A stretch of 64,000 nt of DNA from contig JANQNV010000184.1 in NCBI GenBank assembly GCA_028279425.1, forward strand, positions 1-64,000. Reading direction: 5' to 3'. Of the stretch, positions 5,367-18,379 are shown piece by piece. The notes under the pieces are model-generated. The model had not been told where the DNA came from, did not search any database, and saw only the letters and a list, made by a program, of their open reading frames with translations. Numbering within the stretch: position 1 is the first letter of the stretch; each line of letters opens with the position of its first letter. The position numbers and the translations under genes were made by a program. Source of the stretch: Longimicrobiales bacterium. Its GTDB lineage: Bacteria > Gemmatimonadota > Gemmatimonadetes > Longimicrobiales > Gaopeijiaceae.

Positions 5367-5762
5367 TCACGCGGGTGTCTCGGCGGGTGCGCCGGGGCGC
5401 GCCGCAGACGACGGGTCCAGCCGAGGCGCGAACAGCACCACCATGGGTGAGGTCGACAGGAGTTGGTCGCGCCCGCACGCCGCGACGAACACCTCCTCGG
5501 CCAGGCGGTGGCGCTCCACATCCGAAAACGGCACCTCGAGTTCGAGGATCGCCCGAAGGCCGAGGGCGCCGCGCGATTGCACCAGCCGGGGCACGACCGT
5601 ACCGCCGAAGACCGCCTCGGCCATCTCGACGGCGCGCCATTGCATCGCCCGAAGCACCCAACGCTCCTGGGCCTCCTGCCGCATCGACGGGTCGAGGTAC
5701 CCCATCGGATCGGCGTCGTCGTCCGGGCGCGGCGGAAGGGGCGGCAGGAAGCCCGCGCTCAC
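5367..5762 (-). CDS. Hypothetical protein (131 aa)
   Basis: Intact ORF between tyrA and rnz on the same strand, overlapping rnz by 4 bp; no family recognised. Confidence 0.6.
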   Translation of the reverse strand: MSAGFLPPLPPRPDDDADPMGYLDPSMRQEAQERWVLRAMQWRAVEMAEAVFGGTVVPRLVQSRGALGLRAILELEVPFSDVERHRLAEEVFVAACGRDQLLSTSPMVVLFAPRLDPSSAARPGAPAETPA

Positions 5763-6682
5763 GGCTCGTCTCCGCGCAGGGGGATTTCGATGACCAGGCC
5801 GTCGTGGGCGGCCGTCGAAGCCGGGAAGATCGCCCGAGCCTCGGCTTCGAGCAGATGCGGCACCTCGGCATACCGGGCCGACAGATGCGTGAGAACGAGT
5901 CGCCCCACCCCCGCCTCGCGCGCGATCTCGGCCGCTTCCGCAGCGGTCGAATGCCCCGTTTCGCGGGCCCGCTCGGCGTCCTCGTGCAGGAAGGTGGCGT
6001 CGTGGATCAGCAGATCGGCACCGCTCACGGCGTCCACGACCGCCGGCGAAGGGCGCGTGTCGCCGGTGTAGGCGACGATTCGACCCGGCCGCGGTGGCCC
6101 GACCACCTCGTCGGCGGTCACCGGCCGTCCGTCGGCGGCTTCGACGGTTTCTCCCCGGTGCAGGCGACCGAAGGCCGGCCCCTCCGGTACGCCCAGTCGG
6201 CGCGCCAGCTCCACGTCGAAGCGCCCCAGCCGATCGTCTTCGCGCAACGCGAAGCCGACGGCACGGATGCCGTGGGTCACCTCGAAGGCTTCGACCCGCC
6301 AGCCGTCGAAGTCCACGCGGTCGCCCGGGTCCACCTCGCGAATGGTCACCTCGAAGGGCACCCGCTCGAGTCCCAGGTGCACCGCCCGCTCCAGGATCCG
6401 CCCGGCGCGGGCCGGACCGTAGATCGACAAGGGATCGGTGCGACCCTGCAGTCCCATGGTGCGCAGCAGCCCCGTCAGCCCGAGGAAGTGGTCGGCATGA
6501 ACGTGCGTGATGAACACCGACGACACGGCGAACCCCGTCGCGAAGCGCATCATCTGACGCTGTGTACCTTCGCCGCAGTCGAAGAGCATCAGGTCGCCCT
6601 CCCGCTGCACGGCGAGGCCACTGACGTTCCGTCCCGGGGTCGGCCGGGCCGCCGCGGTGCCGAGAAACGTGACCCGAATCAT
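5759..6682 (-). CDS. rnz: Ribonuclease Z
   Basis: MIRVTFLGTAAARPTPGRNVSG, THVHADHFLGLTGLL, VAYTGDTRPS, DATFLHEDAERA. Confidence 0.95.
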   Translation of the reverse strand: MIRVTFLGTAAARPTPGRNVSGLAVQREGDLMLFDCGEGTQRQMMRFATGFAVSSVFITHVHADHFLGLTGLLRTMGLQGRTDPLSIYGPARAGRILERAVHLGLERVPFEVTIREVDPGDRVDFDGWRVEAFEVTHGIRAVGFALREDDRLGRFDVELARRLGVPEGPAFGRLHRGETVEAADGRPVTADEVVGPPRPGRIVAYTGDTRPSPAVVDAVSGADLLIHDATFLHEDAERARETGHSTAAEAAEIAREAGVGRLVLTHLSARYAEVPHLLEAEARAIFPASTAAHDGLVIEIPLRGDEP

Positions 6683-7254
6683 GTCATCCGCAGGAAGTTG
6701 CCGAGAAGCTGCCGCCCCCCCTCCGAGAAGAGGGACTCGGGGTGGAACTGTACACCCCACACGGGCCACTCGCGGTGGCACATGGCCTGCACCTCGACCG
6801 ACGAACCGGAACGCGACCACGCGATCGGCTCGAGTACGTCGGGTAGGACGTCGGGGTCGGTGACGAGCGAGTGATACCGGGTCACCGTGAGGGGGCTCGG
6901 CAAGCCTTCGAACAGCCCCGTGCCGTCGTGTTCGATCGGGTCGGTCTTGCCGTGCATGACCCGGTCCGCCCGGATGGTCCGGCCTCCATACGCCTCACCG
7001 ATCGCCTGGTGTCCGAGACAGACGCCGAGCATCGGCACCGTCGACCCGAGCTCGCGCACGACGTCGATGCAGACGCCGGCCTCGGCCGGTGTGCAGGGGC
7101 CCGGCGACAACACGATACGCTCCGGATACAGATCGCGGATCTCGTCGACGGTTCGCTCGTCGTTGCGGATCACCTGCGGGTCGCCGCCCAGCTCCCCGAG
7201 GAACTGAACGAGGTTGAAGGTGAAGGAGTCGTAGTTGTCGAGAACGAGCAACAT
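6679..7254 (-). CDS. trpG: Anthranilate/aminodeoxychorismate synthase glutamine amidotransferase subunit
   Basis: MLLVLDNYDSFTFNLVQFLGELGG, SPGPCTPAEAG, GVCLGHQAIG, QFHPES; 4 bp overlap with rnz. Confidence 0.93.
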   Translation of the reverse strand: MLLVLDNYDSFTFNLVQFLGELGGDPQVIRNDERTVDEIRDLYPERIVLSPGPCTPAEAGVCIDVVRELGSTVPMLGVCLGHQAIGEAYGGRTIRADRVMHGKTDPIEHDGTGLFEGLPSPLTVTRYHSLVTDPDVLPDVLEPIAWSRSGSSVEVQAMCHREWPVWGVQFHPESLFSEGGRQLLGNFLRMT

Positions 7255-7388: not shown

Positions 7389-8426
7389 GTGGGTGTGATT
7401 CGAAGTTGTCTCGTGTGCTCGATTCCGTTGCCCGAGAACGGCGTACTCGAACATCTGCCCTACGGATACCGTTTCGCCTTCGATCCTGAGCGTGGGCGCC
7501 TCTGGGTGGTGTGCTCGAACTGCCGTCGCTGGTCTCTCGTGCCCCTCGAAGACCGCTGGGAAGCGATCGAAGAGCTCGAGCGGGCCGCGCGCGACCGCGG
7601 GCGCCTCCTCTCGCAGACCGATACCATCGCCCTGGTGAAGGTCGGCCCCCTCGACGTCGTGCGCGTCGGGAACGCGAGCCGTACGGAGGAGGCGTGGTGG
7701 AGGTACGGTCGCGAGTTGGTTCGCCGGCGCACCTCGTACGGTCGACTCACCGTCGCGGCCGGAGCGGCGAGCGCCGCCGTCGTGGCCGGCGGCTGGGCGA
7801 CCGGCGGCATCTCCTTCTTCGGCGCGTGGTGGTTGTGGAGTCAGGCGCCAGACGGCATCAAACGCGGCGCGCGGTGGCTCCGGTTCGGATCCGCGGCGTG
7901 GCGGGGCCGCGAGCGCTGCGCGAAGTGCGGGTACGAGTTCACGGACGTGTCGTTCAAGGAGCGGCAAAACCTGGTGCTGCTGCCGGACTCGGAGCAGCCC
8001 GGGAATGTGGTGCTCGGCGCGCGGTGCCCTCGTTGCCAGGATCTGGCCGAGGGGGGACTTCGCCTCAAGGACCGCGCTGCGGAGCGCACGATCCAACGCG
8101 TGCTCGCCTACCATCACTTCGACGGCGCCTCCGAACAGCGGGTCCGTTCGGCGACCCGACTCATCGAAGAGGCCGGCTCCGCCCGCGACCTGACCCGCAT
8201 CCTGCTGCGCGACGGCCGACGAATGGGAGACCTCCAGCGTACCGGAGCCATCGCCCTCGAGATCTCTGCCAACGAGTCGTCGGAGCAACGGGCGCTCGAA
8301 ATGGAGGTCGCCGAGCTCGAGGCCGTCTGGCGAAAGGAAGAAGAGCTCGCGGCCATCATCGACGACGAGCTGACCGACGTTCCGTTGCTCGAGACGTTTC
8401 GGCGGCGGGTGCTGAAGAAGGGCTGA
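7389..8426 (+). CDS. Hypothetical membrane-associated protein with paired zinc-ribbon-like CxxC motifs
   Basis: CLVC / CSNC near the N-terminus, hydrophobic segment AAGAASAAVVAGGWATGGISFFGAWW, then CAKC / CPRC; 345 aa. Confidence 0.7.
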   Translation: MGVIRSCLVCSIPLPENGVLEHLPYGYRFAFDPERGRLWVVCSNCRRWSLVPLEDRWEAIEELERAARDRGRLLSQTDTIALVKVGPLDVVRVGNASRTEEAWWRYGRELVRRRTSYGRLTVAAGAASAAVVAGGWATGGISFFGAWWLWSQAPDGIKRGARWLRFGSAAWRGRERCAKCGYEFTDVSFKERQNLVLLPDSEQPGNVVLGARCPRCQDLAEGGLRLKDRAAERTIQRVLAYHHFDGASEQRVRSATRLIEEAGSARDLTRILLRDGRRMGDLQRTGAIALEISANESSEQRALEMEVAELEAVWRKEEELAAIIDDELTDVPLLETFRRRVLKKG

Positions 8427-8506
8427 GCCGATCTGGGACGAGTGCCTGAGGTTGGACAGAGCAACGGATCCGCCCCGCGCGTGTGGGCATCGGCGGACCG
8501 ATCGCC

Positions 8507-10853: not shown

Positions 10854-12833
10854 TCAGTAGTCCACCGGCCGCAGGTAGAACGCCCCGATCGCCGACGACG
10901 AGAGCACCGCCACGGTCGGCCGTTCGCGCTTCCAGTGCGTCGACGACAGCCGCCCATCCACGCGTCGGACCTGCTCGGCATCGAAGCCGCTGCGAATCAG
11001 GTCGCCCGCCGTGTAACCCCGCACCAGCCAGAACAGGATCGGGTCGGCGTCGGGATAGGTGATCCCGAGTTCGTGCTCGTCGTGCACGCCCTGGACGAGA
11101 TCCGCCGACGCCGGCTTGTCGATGATCGGATCCGGTACGCCGAGGTGACGCGCCAGCGCCCACACCTGCGTCTTGAAGAGGTCGCCCAGGGGATTGATCG
11201 GGGGCGAGTCGTCGGCGTGCCAGGTATAGTAGCCCAGCAGTCGCTCGCTCTTGTTGCCGGTGCCGAGGGGGAGCGCACGCAGCTTGGCCGACTGGTCGAA
11301 GAGGACGATGGCCCGCATGCGCGCCATCACGTTGCCTCGCCGGAGCCCGTCGGCGTCGTCTTCGAATCCGGACAGGTAGCCGTCGACGGCCGCCGAGATG
11401 TCGATCGTGCGCTCGTGCGCCCCCGTATCGGCGAGCGCGAGCGCCGCGTGCTCGAGGCTGTCGGGGCTCGAGGTGCGGTACGGGAGACGAAACCCGTAGA
11501 CGTTTTCGGGCCCGAGCGCGCGACACGCCAGGTAGAGCGAGACCGCCGAGTCGACGCCGCCGGACACCCCGATGACGACCCGTTCGAACCCCCGGCGCTC
11601 CACCACCTCGTCGCGGATGAACCTGACGAGCGCCGTCTCGACCAACGCGAGGTCGAGGTCCATCCATCCCTCGCGATCTCGATCGATCGGTCCGGTGGGC
11701 GGGCCCCCGCCACGGAGTCCCTGGGTGTAGGCGGCGCCCCTCGTTTCTGCATCGCGGTCGGCAGGCTCCGCACTCCCGTCGCGTGCCGCCCCATCCGAGG
11801 CCCCCGCACTCGCGTCTAGGGCTCCTGCGCCACCTGTGCCCGCATCGAGGTTGGCGACCTCTACATCCGCCTGCTCGGCTCGTGCCCCGCGGCCCGGCCA
11901 CCGCTTCCCGCGGCCCCTCCGCGGCCCTCGCCCACCCCGGGCACCTCGCCCGGCCGCGCGCCTCACCGCCCGCTGGAGGTGAGGGAGCATTTTCTCCAGA
12001 TCCGCCAGCATGGGCGCGGTCGCCCGGGTGCGCTCGATCGCGACACCGTGGAGCGCCGCGGTCACCACCCCGGCGTCGAGGAGGGCGCCGCGCACCACGA
12101 CCTCGCCGTCGGGCGCCACCACGATCGATCCGCCCGGGAAGAGTTTGCCACCCTCCGATCCGACCAGCTGGGCAACCGCGACGAAGATGCCGTGCTCCTC
12201 GGCAGTCGAGGTGGCCAGTCGAGTCCAGCGCGCGAGGTTGGCGGGCTCTCCCGTGCCGCGATGGAAGTCGCGCGCGGGCGATGCGCTCGCGACCAGCAGG
12301 AGCTCCGCGCCGCCGAGCGCGAGGGCGGTCGCGGGCAAACCGTGCCAGAGATCCTCGCAGATCAGCAGTCCCACACGACCGAACCGGGTATCGACGCACC
12401 GAACGTCGCGTCCCGCCTCCACGAAGCGATCCTCATCGAACACCCCGTACGTCGGGAGGAAGAGCTTACGATGCACGTGGAGGGTGCGGTAGCCGTCGGG
12501 CGTCGCTTCGAAGTAGCCGACCGCGTTGTAGAGGCGGCGGCGCCACCGCTCGTAGAAGCCCACGACGACGTCGGGTGCGCGGTCCCCGCCGGGTCCGAGG
12601 CCGCGCGCCACATCGTCGGCCGTGCGCGCGGCTTCCGCGACGCCTCCCTCGAGGAAGTACCCCGAGAGCGCCGCCTCCGGGAAGGCGACGATGTCGGCCG
12701 CACCGTGGAGAGCCGACACCTGTTCGGCCACGCGCTCGAGGTTGCGATCGAAGCGCGCCTTCTCGGGGCGGAACTGGCAGATCGAGAGTCGCAGAGGAGG
12801 CGCACCCGCGTGGGGCGCAGATACAACGGCCAT
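10854..12833 (-). CDS. nadE: Glutamine-dependent NAD+ synthetase (nitrilase + synthetase domains)
   Basis: N-terminal nitrilase fold (LSICQFRPEKARFDRN, FPEAALSGY, GLLICEDLWHG), C-terminal VIGVSGGVDSAVSLYLACRALG, GTGNKSERLLGYYTWHADDSPPINPLGDLFKTQV; upstream ATG at 12914 also possible. Confidence 0.93.
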   Translation of the reverse strand: MAVVSAPHAGAPPLRLSICQFRPEKARFDRNLERVAEQVSALHGAADIVAFPEAALSGYFLEGGVAEAARTADDVARGLGPGGDRAPDVVVGFYERWRRRLYNAVGYFEATPDGYRTLHVHRKLFLPTYGVFDEDRFVEAGRDVRCVDTRFGRVGLLICEDLWHGLPATALALGGAELLLVASASPARDFHRGTGEPANLARWTRLATSTAEEHGIFVAVAQLVGSEGGKLFPGGSIVVAPDGEVVVRGALLDAGVVTAALHGVAIERTRATAPMLADLEKMLPHLQRAVRRAAGRGARGGRGPRRGRGKRWPGRGARAEQADVEVANLDAGTGGAGALDASAGASDGAARDGSAEPADRDAETRGAAYTQGLRGGGPPTGPIDRDREGWMDLDLALVETALVRFIRDEVVERRGFERVVIGVSGGVDSAVSLYLACRALGPENVYGFRLPYRTSSPDSLEHAALALADTGAHERTIDISAAVDGYLSGFEDDADGLRRGNVMARMRAIVLFDQSAKLRALPLGTGNKSERLLGYYTWHADDSPPINPLGDLFKTQVWALARHLGVPDPIIDKPASADLVQGVHDEHELGITYPDADPILFWLVRGYTAGDLIRSGFDAEQVRRVDGRLSSTHWKRERPTVAVLSSSAIGAFYLRPVDY

Positions 12834-12854: not shown

Positions 12855-12938
12855 GGCGCGCGGCACGGGCACCCGGGCGTGCGGCACGGGCACCCGAGCG
12901 TGCGGGTTGGGCACCCGAGCGTGCGGGTTGGGAGCCGG
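12855..12938. repeat. Tandem 21 bp repeat, about 4 units, at the nadE 5' end
   Basis: Units ggcgcgcggcacgggcacccg / ggcgtgcggcacgggcacccg / agcgtgcgggttgggcacccg / agcgtgcgggttgggagccg. Confidence 0.85.
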
Positions 12939-13039
12939 AAAGGTACCATAGCTAAAGGGCTCGCGTCAGGACTCCGGAACGCCCTTCGCCTCCGAGGGGT
13001 TAGATCAGCGAGCCCCTTCGCCTCCCCAAGGAAACCCGA

Positions 13040-14689
13040 ATGCTTCGCCACAGCCAACTCGCTCGCGCCGCGTGCGGTCTCTCTCTGACTCTGCTGCTCG
13101 CTACGCCCGCCCTCGGCCAGAGCACGGCCTTGCGAGACCGTGGGTCCTCGACGGCTCCGGCCGCGGAGGAGCGAGAGGTGTTCGTGAGCGCCCTGGAGGC
13201 GATCTCACGGTTGCACATGAGTGCACCCAACGACTCGACCCTGTGGTCACGAGCCATCGACGGGCTGATCGCGTCGTTGGACGACCCCTACGCCGAGGTA
13301 TTCACCCCGCGCGAGGTCGAGGTTTTCGAAGAGCAGAACACGGGCAACTACGCCGGAATCGGGATCCAGATCACGCAGCTGAACGACATGGTCACGGTGA
13401 CCGCCGTGTTCAACAGTACTCCCGCCGAGGACGTCGGAATCCTCGAGGGCGACATCATCGTGGAGATCAACGGCGTCGATGCGCGGGACTTCACCACGGA
13501 CTCGGTGTCCAAGGTCGTTCGGGGGACTCCGGGTACGAAGGTCGACGTGAGCGTGGAGCGTGAGGGCTACGACCAGCCGATTCCCTTCAACATCACGCGA
13601 GCCGAGGTTCACGTCCCCACGGTGCGCGCGGGCTCGGTCGACGGTGGACTCACCTACGTGGTCATGGATCGGTTCGCGCGTGGCGCCATCACCGAGATGG
13701 ATTCGGTGCTGCGCGAGAACGACGGCATGAACGGCCTGATCATCGACCTGCGGGGGAACCCGGGCGGCTACCTGGACGAAGCCCTCATGCTGTCGGACCT
13801 CTTCCTGACCCCGGGGCAGAAGCTCGCCAGCACGCGGTCGCGCACCCCGGGTACGTCCGGTGATCCGACCGAAGAATCGTGGACGGATCGTGTTCCCCCG
13901 CGGATCCCCGATGTGCCCATGGTGGTGCTGGTCGATCGCTTCTCGGCATCGGCGTCGGAGATTCTCGCCGGGGCGCTCCAGGACCACGATCGGGCACTGG
14001 TCGTCGGTCAGCGGAGCTTCGGCAAGGGGCTCGTGCAGACCGTGATGCCGCTTCCACACGGCCGCCAGCTTCGGATCACCACGGGCGAGTGGCTGAGCCC
14101 GCTGGGCCGGTCGTTGCACCGGGCGCGGGCCTCCGACGGTCGCCCCCTCCCTGAAGACGTCGACACCTTCCCGACGATCCGCTCCGACTCGGGCCGTGAG
14201 CTCATCGCTGTAGGTGGCATCTTCCCCGACCTTACGGTCCGGGACGACACCCTGACGTTGGCCGAACGAGATCTGCTCCAGGGAGCGGTCGAGGCCGAGC
14301 TCCCCCTTCCCCTCCGGCTGGCCGAGTTCGGCTTTGCCCAGGCCCGGGCGTTGGAGGCGGCGGGCGAGCCGGCGCAACTCCGCGATGCGCCCTTCGAGGC
14401 GTTCCTCAAGGGCCTGGTCGACGAGGGACTGCCCGCCGAACTGCTGGAAGCCGACGGCGTGTCGGACTACCTGCGCTGGCGGGCGTCGATCAGCATCGCC
14501 GACCGTATGGACGACCTCGGTGCGAGGGCGGAGTTCTTGATGATGCGCGACCCCGTGCTGCGCGAAGCCGTCGGTCTCCTCCGAAGGTCGCCGACGCAGG
14601 ACGCGCTCTACGTGGCGGCCGCGGGTCGCGAGTCGAGCGACGAGGCCACGGGGGCCGCCGACTCCTCGTCGGGAGGCACTCCGCGCTAG
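13040..14689 (+). CDS. S41 family C-terminal processing peptidase with PDZ domain
   Basis: Signal peptide LTLLLATPALGQ; PDZ GIGIQITQLNDMVTVTAVFNSTPAEDVGILEGDIIVEING; GLIIDLRGNPGGYLDEA; VLVDRFSASASEILAGALQDHDRALVVGQRSFGKGLVQ. Confidence 0.93.
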   Translation: MLRHSQLARAACGLSLTLLLATPALGQSTALRDRGSSTAPAAEEREVFVSALEAISRLHMSAPNDSTLWSRAIDGLIASLDDPYAEVFTPREVEVFEEQNTGNYAGIGIQITQLNDMVTVTAVFNSTPAEDVGILEGDIIVEINGVDARDFTTDSVSKVVRGTPGTKVDVSVEREGYDQPIPFNITRAEVHVPTVRAGSVDGGLTYVVMDRFARGAITEMDSVLRENDGMNGLIIDLRGNPGGYLDEALMLSDLFLTPGQKLASTRSRTPGTSGDPTEESWTDRVPPRIPDVPMVVLVDRFSASASEILAGALQDHDRALVVGQRSFGKGLVQTVMPLPHGRQLRITTGEWLSPLGRSLHRARASDGRPLPEDVDTFPTIRSDSGRELIAVGGIFPDLTVRDDTLTLAERDLLQGAVEAELPLPLRLAEFGFAQARALEAAGEPAQLRDAPFEAFLKGLVDEGLPAELLEADGVSDYLRWRASISIADRMDDLGARAEFLMMRDPVLREAVGLLRRSPTQDALYVAAAGRESSDEATGAADSSSGGTPR

Positions 14690-14733
14690 TCGCGCCCGGT
14701 CGCGGTAGTCGCGGTAGGTCGAGGCGGGTCGCA

Positions 14734-15759
14734 GTGCTCGACAATCGCCCTCCGGCGCGGGCGGTCGTGTTCGGAGCGACCGGACTGATCGGTCGCCATC
14801 TCGTCGACCAGTTGCTCGCGCGGGGCACACGCGTCGTCGAAGCCGGCCGGCGGCCCAGCGGCGAGGGCGACGGGTCCGGCTTCAGGCCCGCCCGTGGGGG
14901 GGCCGAGGCTGGCCTGGAGACCCACGGTCGGGACGCAGAGGCTGATTGGGCGCGGCACCGGCCGGGCGCGGAGGCTGGGCTCGCTCCCGACGGCCGGAGC
15001 GCGGAGGCCAGCCGGGCACCCCACGACCGCGGCGCGGAGGCTGGCCGGGGTCCCGACGGCCGGAGCGCGGAGGCCAGCCGGGCAGCCCACGACCGCGGCG
15101 CGGAGGCCGGCCGGGGTCCCGACGACCGGGGCGCGGAGGCTGGCCGGGGTCCCGACGACCGGAGCGCGGAGGCTGGCCGGGCAGCCCACGACCGCGGCGC
15201 GGGCGCGCCTCCGACGAACTGGACGTTCGAGGCCGTGGACTTCGAGCGACTCGTCGAGGACCCCGACGCCGGGCCGGCCTGTCTTCGAGGCGACCCGGTC
15301 GTCTTCATCGCGCTGGGTACCACGCGGAAGAGCGCCGGCTCGCGGGAGGCGTTCCGCCGCGTGGATCTGACCTATGTGCGGGCTGCGGCCACAGCCGCGC
15401 GCCGAGCCGGTGTGAACCACCTCCTCGCGGTAAGCAGCGTGGGGGCGAAGCCCTCCGCCTCGACGTTCTACCTTCGGGTGAAGGCCGAAGCCGAGGAGGC
15501 CCTGATGGCCCTGGGCTTTCCGAGTCTCACCCTCGTGCGGCCGTCGCTGCTCGTCGGAGAACGGCCCCAGCCGCGCCCCGGGGAGCTGTGGTCAGCGAGG
15601 GCCATGGCGGTAGCTCGGCCATTCCTCCGCGGTCCCTTCGAGCGCTACCGACCGATCGAGGCCCGCGTTGTCGCGAGAGCCCTCGTGCGTCTGGCCGCCG
15701 ATCCACCCCACGGTGTGGCCGTGTTCGAGTCGCACCACCTCGCCTCGCTGGGAGCCTGA
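14734..15759 (+). CDS. NAD(P)H-binding (TIP30/HTATIP2-like) oxidoreductase with an internal tandem-repeat insertion
   Basis: RAVVFGATGLIGRHLVDQLLARGTRVV Rossmann start; after the insertion VVFIALGTTRKSAGSREAFRRVDLTY, NHLLAVSSVGAKPSASTFYLRVKAEAEEAL, LVRPSLLVGER. Confidence 0.8.
   Translation: MLDNRPPARAVVFGATGLIGRHLVDQLLARGTRVVEAGRRPSGEGDGSGFRPARGGAEAGLETHGRDAEADWARHRPGAEAGLAPDGRSAEASRAPHDRGAEAGRGPDGRSAEASRAAHDRGAEAGRGPDDRGAEAGRGPDDRSAEAGRAAHDRGAGAPPTNWTFEAVDFERLVEDPDAGPACLRGDPVVFIALGTTRKSAGSREAFRRVDLTYVRAAATAARRAGVNHLLAVSSVGAKPSASTFYLRVKAEAEEALMALGFPSLTLVRPSLLVGERPQPRPGELWSARAMAVARPFLRGPFERYRPIEARVVARALVRLAADPPHGVAVFESHHLASLGA
14902..15198 (+). repeat. In-frame 33 bp tandem repeat, 9 units (11 aa consensus AEAGRGPDDRS/G)
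   Basis: Translation AEAGLETHGRD AEADWARHRPG AEAGLAPDGRS AEASRAPHDRG AEAGRGPDGRS AEASRAAHDRG AEAGRGPDDRG AEAGRGPDDRS AEAGRAAHDRG; unit starts 14902 and 15166 are 8 x 33 bp apart. Confidence 0.95.
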
Positions 15760-15781
15760 ACGGGACGGGGCGCTCATCCCA

Positions 15782-15990
15782 GCTCGGACTCGTCGGAGGT
15801 CGAGGCGCTCCCCTGCCCGGCTCGGACGCGTCGGAGGTCGGCGCGGCCCCCTGTCCGGCTCGGACGCGTCGGAGGTCGGCGCGGCCCCCTGCCCGGTCCG
15901 GACGCGTCGGAGGTCGGGGCGGCCCCCTTTCCCCGGCCCGGACTCATGGGACGTCGAGGCGCCCCCTGCCCGGTCCGCTCGTCCGCTCGG
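15782..15990. repeat. Intergenic 37-40 bp (mostly 38 bp) tandem repeat, about 5 units
   Basis: Unit gctcggacgcgtcggaggtcggcgcggccccctgcccg; unit starts at 15782, 15820, 15858, 15896, 15936, 15973. Confidence 0.88.
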
Positions 15991-16040
15991 CGTGCGCCGG
16001 CGGGAGCACCGACCCGCGCCGGGCAGGAGCCACCAGAAGT

Positions 16041-16073
16041 CTCCACCATCTGGGCGAAATCTCGATGGTGGAG
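16041..16073. repeat. Inverted repeat bordering the 60 bp repeat tract
   Basis: CTCCACCAT-(15 nt)-ATGGTGGAG, 9 bp perfect arms. Confidence 0.7.
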
Positions 16074-16215
16074 GGTTGTGGTCGCTATGCGACCATTTGT
16101 CGCCCGCATCCGGCGCATCGCGGCGATCGTGGAGACTTGTGGTCGTATAGCGACCATTTCTCGCCAACATCGACCTGCGCCGCAGATAGTGGAGGGTTGT
16201 GGTCGTGGGGAAGCC
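16065..16215. repeat. 60 bp periodic repeat carrying a palindrome, about 2.5 units
   Basis: GGAG[GG/AC]TTGTGGTCG recurs at 16071, 16131 and 16191 (exact 60 bp spacing); palindromes TGGTCGCTATGCGACCA (16079-16095) and TGGTCGTATAGCGACCA (16140-16156). Confidence 0.85.
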
Positions 16216-16239
16216 CGCTCCCTCGGCGCCGCCCCACCC

Positions 16240-16480
16240 GACGCCGCCCTGCACCGCTTCCGCGCCGCCAAGCCCATGTGCCCCGCCACGTAGCCGTTTC
16301 CGCGCCGCTAACCGCCACGAAAGCGACTCCCCGCCACGTAGCCGCTGCCGCGCCACGTAGCCGTTCCGCGCCACCTCGCGTTCGCCCGCCGCGTAACCGC
16401 TTCCGCGCCGCCAAGCCCATGTGCCCCGCCACGAAAGCGTCTCCGCGCCACGCAAACGTCCCCCTCCCTGGCCCAACGTC
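16240..16480. repeat. Degenerate about 19 bp GC-rich repeat array (CGCCACGTAGCCGTTTCCG-like), including an exact 38 bp duplication
   Basis: Multiple CGCCACGTAGCCG / CGCCGCGTAACCG / CGCCACGAAAGCG units; accgcttccgcgccgccaagcccatgtgccccgccacg is identical at 16253-16290 and 16396-16433. Confidence 0.8.
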
Positions 16481-16538
16481 ATGGCGCCGCCCACGGCGAT
16501 CGACCGCCGCTTCATCTCCCCACCGAGCCGCCTCCCGG

Positions 16539-17762
16539 TCATCCCTCCCCGTCGACATCGCTCGGATCCGCGCCCATCGTCGCCCGCGGATGGTGGGCTC
16601 GGTGCACCTCCGTGAGATAGGTGCGGTCGACGTGGGTGTAGATCTGTGTCGTGGAGATGTCGACGTGGCCGAGGAGCTCCTGGACGGCGGCGAGGTCGGC
16701 GCCGCCCTCGAGCAGGTGGGTCGCAAAGGTGTGACGGAGGGTGTGCGGCGACACCTTGCGCTCGATACCCGCGGCCTCGGCGCTCCGCCCCACCAGCGTC
16801 CAGACGGTCTGCCGCGTGAGCGGTCGGCCGCGCACGCTGAGGAACACGCTGCCGCCACTCCCGCCGGACGGTAGCCCCGGCCGCACCTCGCGGATGTAGC
16901 GCTCCAGAGCTCGTGCGGCCGGGGCGCCCAGCGGCACGAGGCGCTCCTTCGAGCCCTTGCCCCGCACGAGCAGGACGCCCTCGTCGAGATCCACGCCGGT
17001 GAGTCGCAGATCGACTACCTCCGACACCCGCAGACCGGACGAGTAGAGGACCTCGAGAACCGCACGGTCGCGCCAGTAGAGCCGACCCTCCGACGCGGGG
17101 GCTTCGACGAGCCGCTCGACCTCGTCGCGCGAGAGGACGTCGGGCAGGGTGCGCCAGGTGCGCGGAGACTCGAGGCGCTCGGTCGGGTCCTCCTCGAGGA
17201 AACCCTCCTCCACCAGGAAGCCGAAGTAGGTACGCAGCGCCGACTGGGCCCGACGAATGGAGGTGGCCGCCAACCCCTCCTCCTTGAGCCGATAGGTGTA
17301 CTCCCGGAGATGCCGATGGTCGACTCGGTCGGGTCGCTCGACGGCTTCCTCCCGCAGGAAGGCGAGCAGGCGCACGAGGTCTCGGGTGTAGGCCTCGAGC
17401 GTGCGGCGGGCGAGCCCCTTCTCGAAGGCGAGGTAGTCGAGGAACTGCTCCAAACGAAACGCGCGTCGAGTGTCGTCCAGAGGCCCACTCGACCCATCGT
17501 CGGCCGCGCCGCTCAAACCGTCGTCGGCCGCGCCGCTCACAGGGTCGTCGGCGCCGCCGCTGACGACGTCTTCCGGCGCGCCGCTGACGAGATCGTCGCC
17601 CGACCCGCCGCGCACGCCGGCGGGCCTGCCGCTCACGTCGCCCGACCCGCCGCCCACGTCGCCCGGCCTGCCGCCCACGTCGCCCGGCCCGCCGCCCACG
17701 TCGCCCGGCCTGCCGCCCACGTCGCCCGGCCCGCCGCCCTCGCCGCCCGGCCCGCCGCTCAC
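16539..17762 (-). CDS. xerD: Tyrosine recombinase, XerD type, with repetitive N-terminal extension
   Basis: FLDYLAFEKGLARRTLEAYTRDLVRLLAFL, LYSSGLRVSEVVDLRL, KGSKERLVPLG, HTLRHTFATHLLEGGADLAAVQELLGHVDISTTQIYTHVDRTYL; sits in the fab/ispF/dedA run. Confidence 0.9.
   Translation of the reverse strand: MSGGPGGEGGGPGDVGGRPGDVGGGPGDVGGRPGDVGGGSGDVSGRPAGVRGGSGDDLVSGAPEDVVSGGADDPVSGAADDGLSGAADDGSSGPLDDTRRAFRLEQFLDYLAFEKGLARRTLEAYTRDLVRLLAFLREEAVERPDRVDHRHLREYTYRLKEEGLAATSIRRAQSALRTYFGFLVEEGFLEEDPTERLESPRTWRTLPDVLSRDEVERLVEAPASEGRLYWRDRAVLEVLYSSGLRVSEVVDLRLTGVDLDEGVLLVRGKGSKERLVPLGAPAARALERYIREVRPGLPSGGSGGSVFLSVRGRPLTRQTVWTLVGRSAEAAGIERKVSPHTLRHTFATHLLEGGADLAAVQELLGHVDISTTQIYTHVDRTYLTEVHRAHHPRATMGADPSDVDGEG
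17480..17762 (-). repeat. In-frame 24 bp and 21 bp tandem repeats at the XerD N-terminus
   Basis: Protein GGRPGDVGGGPGDVGGRPGDVGGGSGDV (7 aa units) and DDPVSGAADDGLSGAADDGSSG (8 aa units). Confidence 0.85.
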
Positions 17763-18379
17763 GAGCCCGGCTCCTCATCGTCGTGGCGGGTCTTCCACCA
17801 CCAGTACGCCAGGCCGGAGACCACGACGACGGCGATCACGAGCAGAGTGCGATTGGCGCTCCCGAGGAGCTCCTCCACGCGTTCGAGGTTCTGGCCCGCG
17901 GTGAGGCCGAGCCACACCAGACCTCCGTACCAGATCCCCGACGCCACCGCGACGGGGGCCGCCGTCCGCCAGAATCCCTGATGCGAAATGCCGGCGAAGG
18001 CCGGCACCACCGCTCTCAGCCCCGGCAGGAACCGGGCGAAGAAGACGGCGCTGGTGCCGAAGCGCCCATAGAACCGCTCGATGCGCCGCAACTGTCCCGG
18101 GCGCAACACCCAGCGACCCGCACCGAGCTCGAAAAACGACCGACCGTAGCGGTGCCCCATCTGGTAGACGACGAGGGCGCCGGCCACGTTGGCGGCCCAC
18201 GTCAGGAAGCCGGCGTAGAGAGGGTCGACGACCTGCCGGGAGGCGAGGAGGCCCGCCACGACCACGAAGGTATCCGCCGGAATCGGGGGTACGAGGTTTT
18301 CGATCGCGGCGCCGAGGGCGAGGAGGGTGTAGACGGCCCACCCCGGCAGTCCAGCCAGCAGGTCGAGGGCCTCTACCAT
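17759..18379 (-). CDS. DedA family membrane protein
   Basis: ENLVPPIPADTFVVVAGLLASR, GRSFFELGAGRWVLRPGQLRRIERFYGRFGTSAVFFARFLPGLRAVVPAFAGIS; 4 bp overlap with xerD. Confidence 0.92.
   Translation of the reverse strand: MVEALDLLAGLPGWAVYTLLALGAAIENLVPPIPADTFVVVAGLLASRQVVDPLYAGFLTWAANVAGALVVYQMGHRYGRSFFELGAGRWVLRPGQLRRIERFYGRFGTSAVFFARFLPGLRAVVPAFAGISHQGFWRTAAPVAVASGIWYGGLVWLGLTAGQNLERVEELLGSANRTLLVIAVVVVSGLAYWWWKTRHDDEEPGS

Follow-up and report, generated by a model that had tools for sequence, protein, structure and literature searches.

The repeat-dense zone around nadE and xerD

The 64,000-nt stretch of contig JANQNV010000184.1 analysed here (the window) carries, at positions 12855-17762, a zone of ~4.9 kb in which tandem repeats crowd around the genes nadE, ctpA, ross and xerD. 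A 183-bp intergenic element, dispersed through the genome, has one of its copies in the ross-xerD spacer. The hot zone is probably one such copy seeding minisatellites in the DNA adjoining it.

Arrays were called with Tandem Repeats Finder (TRF). Those of score 70 or more fill 1,064 bp of the zone and 141 bp of the other 59 kb of the window, and 100 dinucleotide shuffles of the zone gave 0 bp. The original prediction, that a zone of about 5 kb is dense in repeats and the rest of the window nearly free of them, is thus borne out. For the wider comparison the window was combined with 80 stretches (921 kb) of the source genome (G000; a 5.4-Mb assembly in 339 contigs), which were picked by contig number, without regard to repeats or content. 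In this sample of ~985 kb the zone is the densest 5-kb stretch, with five arrays of score 90 or more, and its density stands out from the rest of the genome sampled. The runners-up are two other places with three such arrays each, and both carry the 183-bp element.

Features of the zone, with the strand where one is assigned:
10854-12833, minus strand: nadE, glutamine-dependent NAD synthetase (Pfam); the ATG start is likely at 12833
12856-12926: minisatellite with a 21-bp unit between the divergent nadE and ctpA, 3.1 kb away from the element; the relative G001 lacks it (TRF score 107)
13040-14689, plus strand: ctpA-like PDZ/S41 protease (Pfam)
14682-14732: weak 19/10-bp array (TRF score 52)
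14734-15759, plus strand: ross, NAD(P)-binding protein (NAD_binding_10/Epimerase, Pfam), convergent with xerD
14962-15202, plus strand: 33-bp in-frame array in ross, with 66/99 higher order (TRF)
15777-15977: left flanking minisatellite, 38-bp unit with 76-bp higher order (TRF score 234/277)
16027-16209: three-module palindromic element in the ross-xerD spacer (blastn and covariance model R1)
16063-16206: 60-61-bp TRF call, inside the element
16312-16451: right flanking minisatellite, degenerate 37/19-bp unit (TRF score 95)
16539-17762, minus strand: xerD, housekeeping tyrosine recombinase (Pfam Phage_integrase, 3.1e-49)
17496-17771, minus strand: 24- then 21-bp in-frame arrays directly after the xerD start codon (TRF; the call overruns the start by 9 bp)

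At least six tandem-repeat families had been proposed for the zone. TRF places arrays at all of them, and the 60-bp family is a copy of the dispersed element.

A dispersed three-module element

When the ross-xerD spacer was used as a blastn query against the source genome, 30 further matches were obtained on the two strands, almost all of them covering the middle of the query. By blastn and R1 there are at least about 20 element loci in this genome, on other contigs and among unrelated flanking genes. The window copy scores 152 bits with R1, and both of its strands match. In an iterative profile search of the source genome, each place had exactly three ~60-bp units except one (C46), which had nine. 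The interpretation of 16027-16209 as a minisatellite was rejected, given ~20 dispersed loci with nearly always exactly three modules. The earlier statement that the zone does not reflect one element spreading holds in part only: one of the six families is a copy of this element, and arrays are concentrated beside its copies.

Parts of the window copy, from alignment A1:
16031-16049, plus strand: half-site 1, left arm of module 1 (columns 7-25)
16065-16083, minus strand: half-site 2, right arm of module 1 (columns 42-60)
16084-16090: linker 1, GCTATGC (usually GCTATAC)
16091-16109, plus strand: half-site 3, left arm of module 2
16126-16144, minus strand: half-site 4, right arm of module 2
16145-16151: linker 2, GTATAGC (the usual linker 1 inverted)
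16152-16170, plus strand: half-site 5, left arm of module 3
16186-16204, minus strand: half-site 6, right arm of module 3

The element consists of three palindromic modules of ~54 bp with a period of ~60 bp, and hence of six inverted half-sites of ~19 bp. Spacers inside the modules are fixed at 15-16 nt and linkers at 7 nt. The 16 aligned copies have the layout H1-GCTATAC-H2-GTATAGC-H3; the whole element is therefore an overall palindrome. The half-site consensus derived from 96 arms is G-A-C-C-A-m-A-A-s-y-C-k-C-C-A-c-c-A-T, in which two of the 19 positions are invariant. At C46 (L238, 1501-2050) nine modules, three elements' worth, follow each other consecutively, and no other array adjoins them.

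Compensatory covariation between the arms was looked for and was not found: 72.8% of cells were paired as against 72.9% after shuffling, and the covariation score was 0.115 as against 0.113. The arms vary independently, and pairing therefore only reflects their shared consensus. An RNA structure, whether three hairpins or one long hairpin, was rejected since neither covaries, and Rfam gave no match at the gathering threshold, only matches at chance level. Judged from the alignment, independent arms of this kind would be expected of protein sites rather than of folded RNA or a single-stranded DNA hairpin.

Outside the source genome, R1 found a few loci in G001, the closest relative and a congener (20 contigs). 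A sequence-only model built from the alignment of both genomes found at least about 20 loci there, at least about 10 in G047, which belongs to another genus, and weaker matches in G021, G030, G034, G052 and G054. Diverged relatives of the element are thus present in seven other Gemmatimonadota of several genera; the same model detected it in none of 50 other relatives. A wider draw of the phylum added one further genome only, and loci L327-L329 from that search were left out of the locus analyses. A search for diverged elements by palindrome geometry alone performed, at the threshold used, no better than noise. Half-site versions are specific to each genome, for example CGCCCCCAAnTCTCCACAAC in G001 and GCGACCACAAGTCTTCACCG in G047, which suggests that the half-sites may co-evolve with a trans-acting protein.

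All 18 copies examined in the source genome are intergenic. Among the 28 classified sites of this genome and G001, 13 lie between convergent and 15 between tandem genes; none is divergent (0/13 in the source genome and 0/15 in G001), a class that makes up 99 of the 315 spacers in the source-genome sample. Three orthologous gene pairs could be compared (window, C78, C92), and all three are adjacent in G001 without the element. Element positions therefore turn over. Of the Pfam families in 55 genes flanking elements, the 25 commonest include no transposase. On the question of a miniature inverted-repeat transposable element (MITE), copies without arrays have no obvious target-site duplication, and the ends of the element are inverted half-sites. 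An origin from phage or plasmid was rejected, as phage, viral and plasmid records gave no match.

Two loci of G001 may be recorded here. At L314 (2015-2893) two near-identical direct copies bracket a segment of ~500 bp, like a composite unit; the segment has one small open reading frame of 170 aa with a weak DUF4440 match only. At L308 (1605-2018) a gene 13 bp from the element has a weak match to GIY-YIG nucleases that stays under the curated cut-off, and its recurrence at other element copies was not seen.

Flanking arrays, strand polarity and gene order

Arrays gather beside copies of the element, in several genomes and mostly no more than ~300 bp to its left or right. In the 80 stretches, arrays of score 100 or more number 7.1 per 10 kb where an element lies within 1 kb, 24 times the background density of 0.30 elsewhere. 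At 14 of 19 copies in the source genome an array lies 6-103 bp away. Array coverage around these 19 copies is 30% at 1-100 bp, 43% at 101-200 bp, 8% at 201-400 bp and 2% at 401-800 bp; beyond 400 bp it is 2-4%, with a background of 0.7%. Arrays are present in 20 of 37 flanks of 300 bp and in 1.4% of shuffles. In G001, arrays take up 25% of the 100 bp next to elements, and 140 kb of control DNA contains none. Some copies in G054, G030 and G021 have flanking arrays, and none were seen in G034 and G052. In the window, the left 38-bp minisatellite stops 50 bp short of the element and the right 37/19-bp one begins 103 bp past it. The proposal that a local process forms the repeats agrees with this concentration of arrays beside element copies.

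Elements and minisatellites could both be independent junk, tolerated in one kind of place, the unconstrained spacers at the 3' ends of genes. All classified sites are indeed non-divergent, where constraint is lowest. Yet element-free spacers rarely bear arrays: 10 of 172 of at least 200 bp do, as against five of the seven with an element (p=4e-5), and among spacers of at least 350 bp the counts are 5/82 and 4/6. In bases, 41% of element spacers is array and 1.6% of element-free spacers. The array-free control DNA of G001, the element ends found inside array units and a polarity that follows the element and not the genes (both below) also speak against independent junk, an explanation already weakened and in our judgement unlikely.

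At L307, L308 and L314 of G001 the array units include the end of the element, at L314 the terminal half-site, and at L312, L316 and L317 whole elements stand in tandem. Because units contain element ends and whole elements are repeated, these loci argue that the element precedes the array and that the array grows from the element's edge. The opposite order, in which a mobile element inserts in or next to existing minisatellites, would suit the different positions in different species (the three compared sites lack the element in G001) and the flanks of L245, which share a direct repeat with 88% identity over 66 bp. Insertion into one array should leave the same unit on both sides, whereas other loci with two-sided arrays have different units. 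Several units contain an element end or a whole module, so those arrays arose after the element, and in G001 a 48-bp spacer without array stands at the window site. Such a target preference is accordingly regarded as quite improbable.

A sister hot spot of the source genome (C70; L075, 2257-2939) has a 24-bp array of 11 copies lying 19 bp in front of the element, whose module 3 is itself repeated there as a 64-bp array.

The flanks have a strand polarity. In the source genome, either flank is G-rich on the strand that runs 5' to 3' toward the element, with a skew of +0.195 in the left flank (p=1e-4) and -0.165 in the right flank (p=2e-5). GGGCGG occurs 62 times toward the element and four times away from it. 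The right minisatellite of the window, C-rich on the plus strand and so G-rich toward the element, has this orientation. The polarity is the same for convergent and both tandem gene orders; it therefore follows the element, not transcription. Flanks in G054 and G030 agree with it, and several flanks from different loci are alike when read toward the element. The zone's repeat units had been called unrelated in sequence, a description that needs qualification, since the non-coding arrays beside elements share the polar G-rich bias. The mirror symmetry is not what a one-way fork would give; a two-sided break with 3' tails could give it, and it is seen mainly in one genome.

The order nadE-ctpA-(ross)-xerD-dedA-ispF-fabF-acp is kept in nearly all relatives fetched; beyond xerD lie a dedA-like gene and ispF (Pfam). 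The GTG start of xerD overlaps the dedA stop, and the start VSGG is the same in G001. G001 has the full gene order without the arrays. Its ross-xerD spacer is ~48 bp, as against 777 bp in the source genome; its xerD lacks the ~86 residues inserted by the xerD arrays, and its ross lacks an insertion of ~100 residues after GRRP, of which the 33-bp array is part. Since the same genes are there without arrays, most repeats seen in the zone were gained in the lineage of the source genome, or lost in G001. Both coding differences are in frame. In the ~985-kb sample, periods are multiples of 3 in 16 of 18 coding arrays, compared with 8 of 21 non-coding ones (p=0.0013). Coding-sequence arrays are thus kept mainly in frame, and the filter for frame suggested in the original prediction is upheld.

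A role of the Xer recombinase had also been considered. Local slippage owing to nearby XerD, or to closeness to dif and the terminus, has physical proximity in its favour and is contradicted by the relatives, nearly all of which have xerD among the same neighbours, mostly without arrays. The other element loci of the source genome lie on other contigs with unrelated flanking genes. The position of the locus relative to dnaA is not conserved, the xerD locus being at ~76% and ~19% of the distance from dnaA to its antipode in two complete congeners, so that terminus proximity fails as well. A Xer/dif site, with a 28-bp dif core in single copy near the terminus, was rejected for the element, which has ~20 loci and a different architecture. 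The proximity to xerD is inherited gene order, and we give slippage of this origin hardly any credence.

Other large repeats were noted in passing. In G002, a congener without the element, L052 has a 382-bp x 3.6 tandem repeat downstream of nadE (5554-7087) containing 20/29/32-bp sub-repeats, and a 36-bp array upstream of nadE, between nadE and ctpA (8370-8476); tblastn matched only the C-terminal part of nadE there. In the source genome (C200; L043, 38-2395) a large tandem repeat with a period of 372 bp, divisible by 3, was called coding.

Proposed mechanism and known systems

According to the preferred reading, in which the element seeds the minisatellites, a lineage-specific DNA-binding protein would occupy the half-sites. 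Either this complex, or a nick or break made at the site, would repeatedly interfere with replication or repair to its left and right, and tandem duplications that then grow could come from misaligned re-synthesis of adjoining DNA. A double-ended event, in which a break leaves a 3' tail on either side, would account for the two-sided G-rich polarity better than the stalling of a fork that moves one way. In ross and xerD, 0.8-1.5 kb off, the arrays would persist because their frame is kept.

Several points weigh against this reading. No array adjoins 5 of the 19 copies in the source genome and about 7 of the 15 loci in G001. G001 and G047 have no polarity, and the double-ended step is therefore not general. 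The coding arrays of the zone and the 21-bp array lie 0.8-3 kb from the element, beyond the usual range; the weak enrichment at 0.8-3 kb only suggests a link between the element and the zone arrays outside the ross-xerD spacer, and that it caused the ross and xerD coding arrays is likewise only suggested. The binding protein or nuclease is putative, and we infer the break or stall steps. The spacer classes rest on a simple codon-usage gene caller. The assembly, 90% complete with 5.8% contamination, is in 339 contigs. An assembly artefact might be suspected from this fragmentation; the arrays are degenerate and resolvable, the coding ones are in frame, and the same architecture recurs in the 20-contig G001 and in other genera. 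We find such an artefact extremely improbable.

It may also be asked whether the element is a dedicated site of regular cleavage or of a large nucleoprotein assembly, its flanking arrays, G-rich toward it on the left and the right, serving as polar guides of the Chi or KOPS (FtsK orienting polar sequences) type. It would then represent a new class of site for chromosome maintenance or recombination, one that both generates and employs minisatellites of its own; we hold this reading improbable.

In the open-access subset of the literature, no description of the element was found and no such mosaic element was reported for Gemmatimonadota. Judged against this literature and general knowledge, the element was previously unrecognised, and it appears as a new type of intergenic mosaic element.

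The nearest comparison is with repetitive extragenic palindromes (REP), bacterial interspersed mosaic elements (BIME) and REPIN, non-autonomous palindromes spread by the Y1 HUH transposase RAYT (REP-associated tyrosine transposase). Like these, the element is dispersed in many copies, intergenic and built of palindromic units in alternating orientation, with a consensus that changes between species; it is sited at the 3' ends of genes and is absent between divergent promoters. Unlike them, it has a fixed three-module layout of 183 bp with 54-bp modules in place of 20-40-bp units, and its flanking minisatellites are built from adjoining unique DNA. Y1_Tnp (PF01797) was found in 0 of 7 genomes, G000 and G001 included, and in 5 of 14 control genomes. 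Published BIMEs keep their palindrome through complementary changes (PMC2817692), and the arms of the element have no such compensatory pairing. It thus shares general layout and location with BIMEs and lacks three defining features of REP/BIME (RAYT, compensatory changes and the 20-40-bp unit). Membership in this family is very unlikely.

By description, not by sequence, the element can be likened to RIME/ABC of rhizobia, BOX of pneumococcus and NIME of Neisseria, which are modular intergenic mosaic repeats with several palindromes, as it is itself. To our knowledge, the formation of flanking minisatellites is not a described property of any of them. The res sites of serine resolvases consist of three dimer-binding inverted-repeat subsites in a row, and the element likewise has three inverted-repeat subsites consecutively; again compared by description, its subsites have roughly double the length and are evenly spaced, and no recombinase is linked to it. 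Chi sites and KOPS are polar G-rich motifs aimed at a special site from both sides. The likeness to them is a resemblance only, as the polarity of the element is in minisatellites within ~300 bp of ~20 sites, involves no single fixed octamer and is absent in G001. The polarity does provide a built-in arrow that separates models of a two-sided break from those of a one-way fork stall.

The flanking arrays themselves are ordinary degenerate minisatellites of 15-76 bp, like other bacterial minisatellites, variable number tandem repeats (VNTR) and mycobacterial interspersed repetitive units (MIRU). The origin of bacterial minisatellites is usually ascribed to chance slippage. Unlike VNTR and MIRU, the spacer arrays of these hot spots are non-randomly placed, mostly starting within ~100 bp of the element. 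In several genera, a defined and dispersed sequence predicts where they arise, which ties the birth of a minisatellite to a sequence that can be tested.

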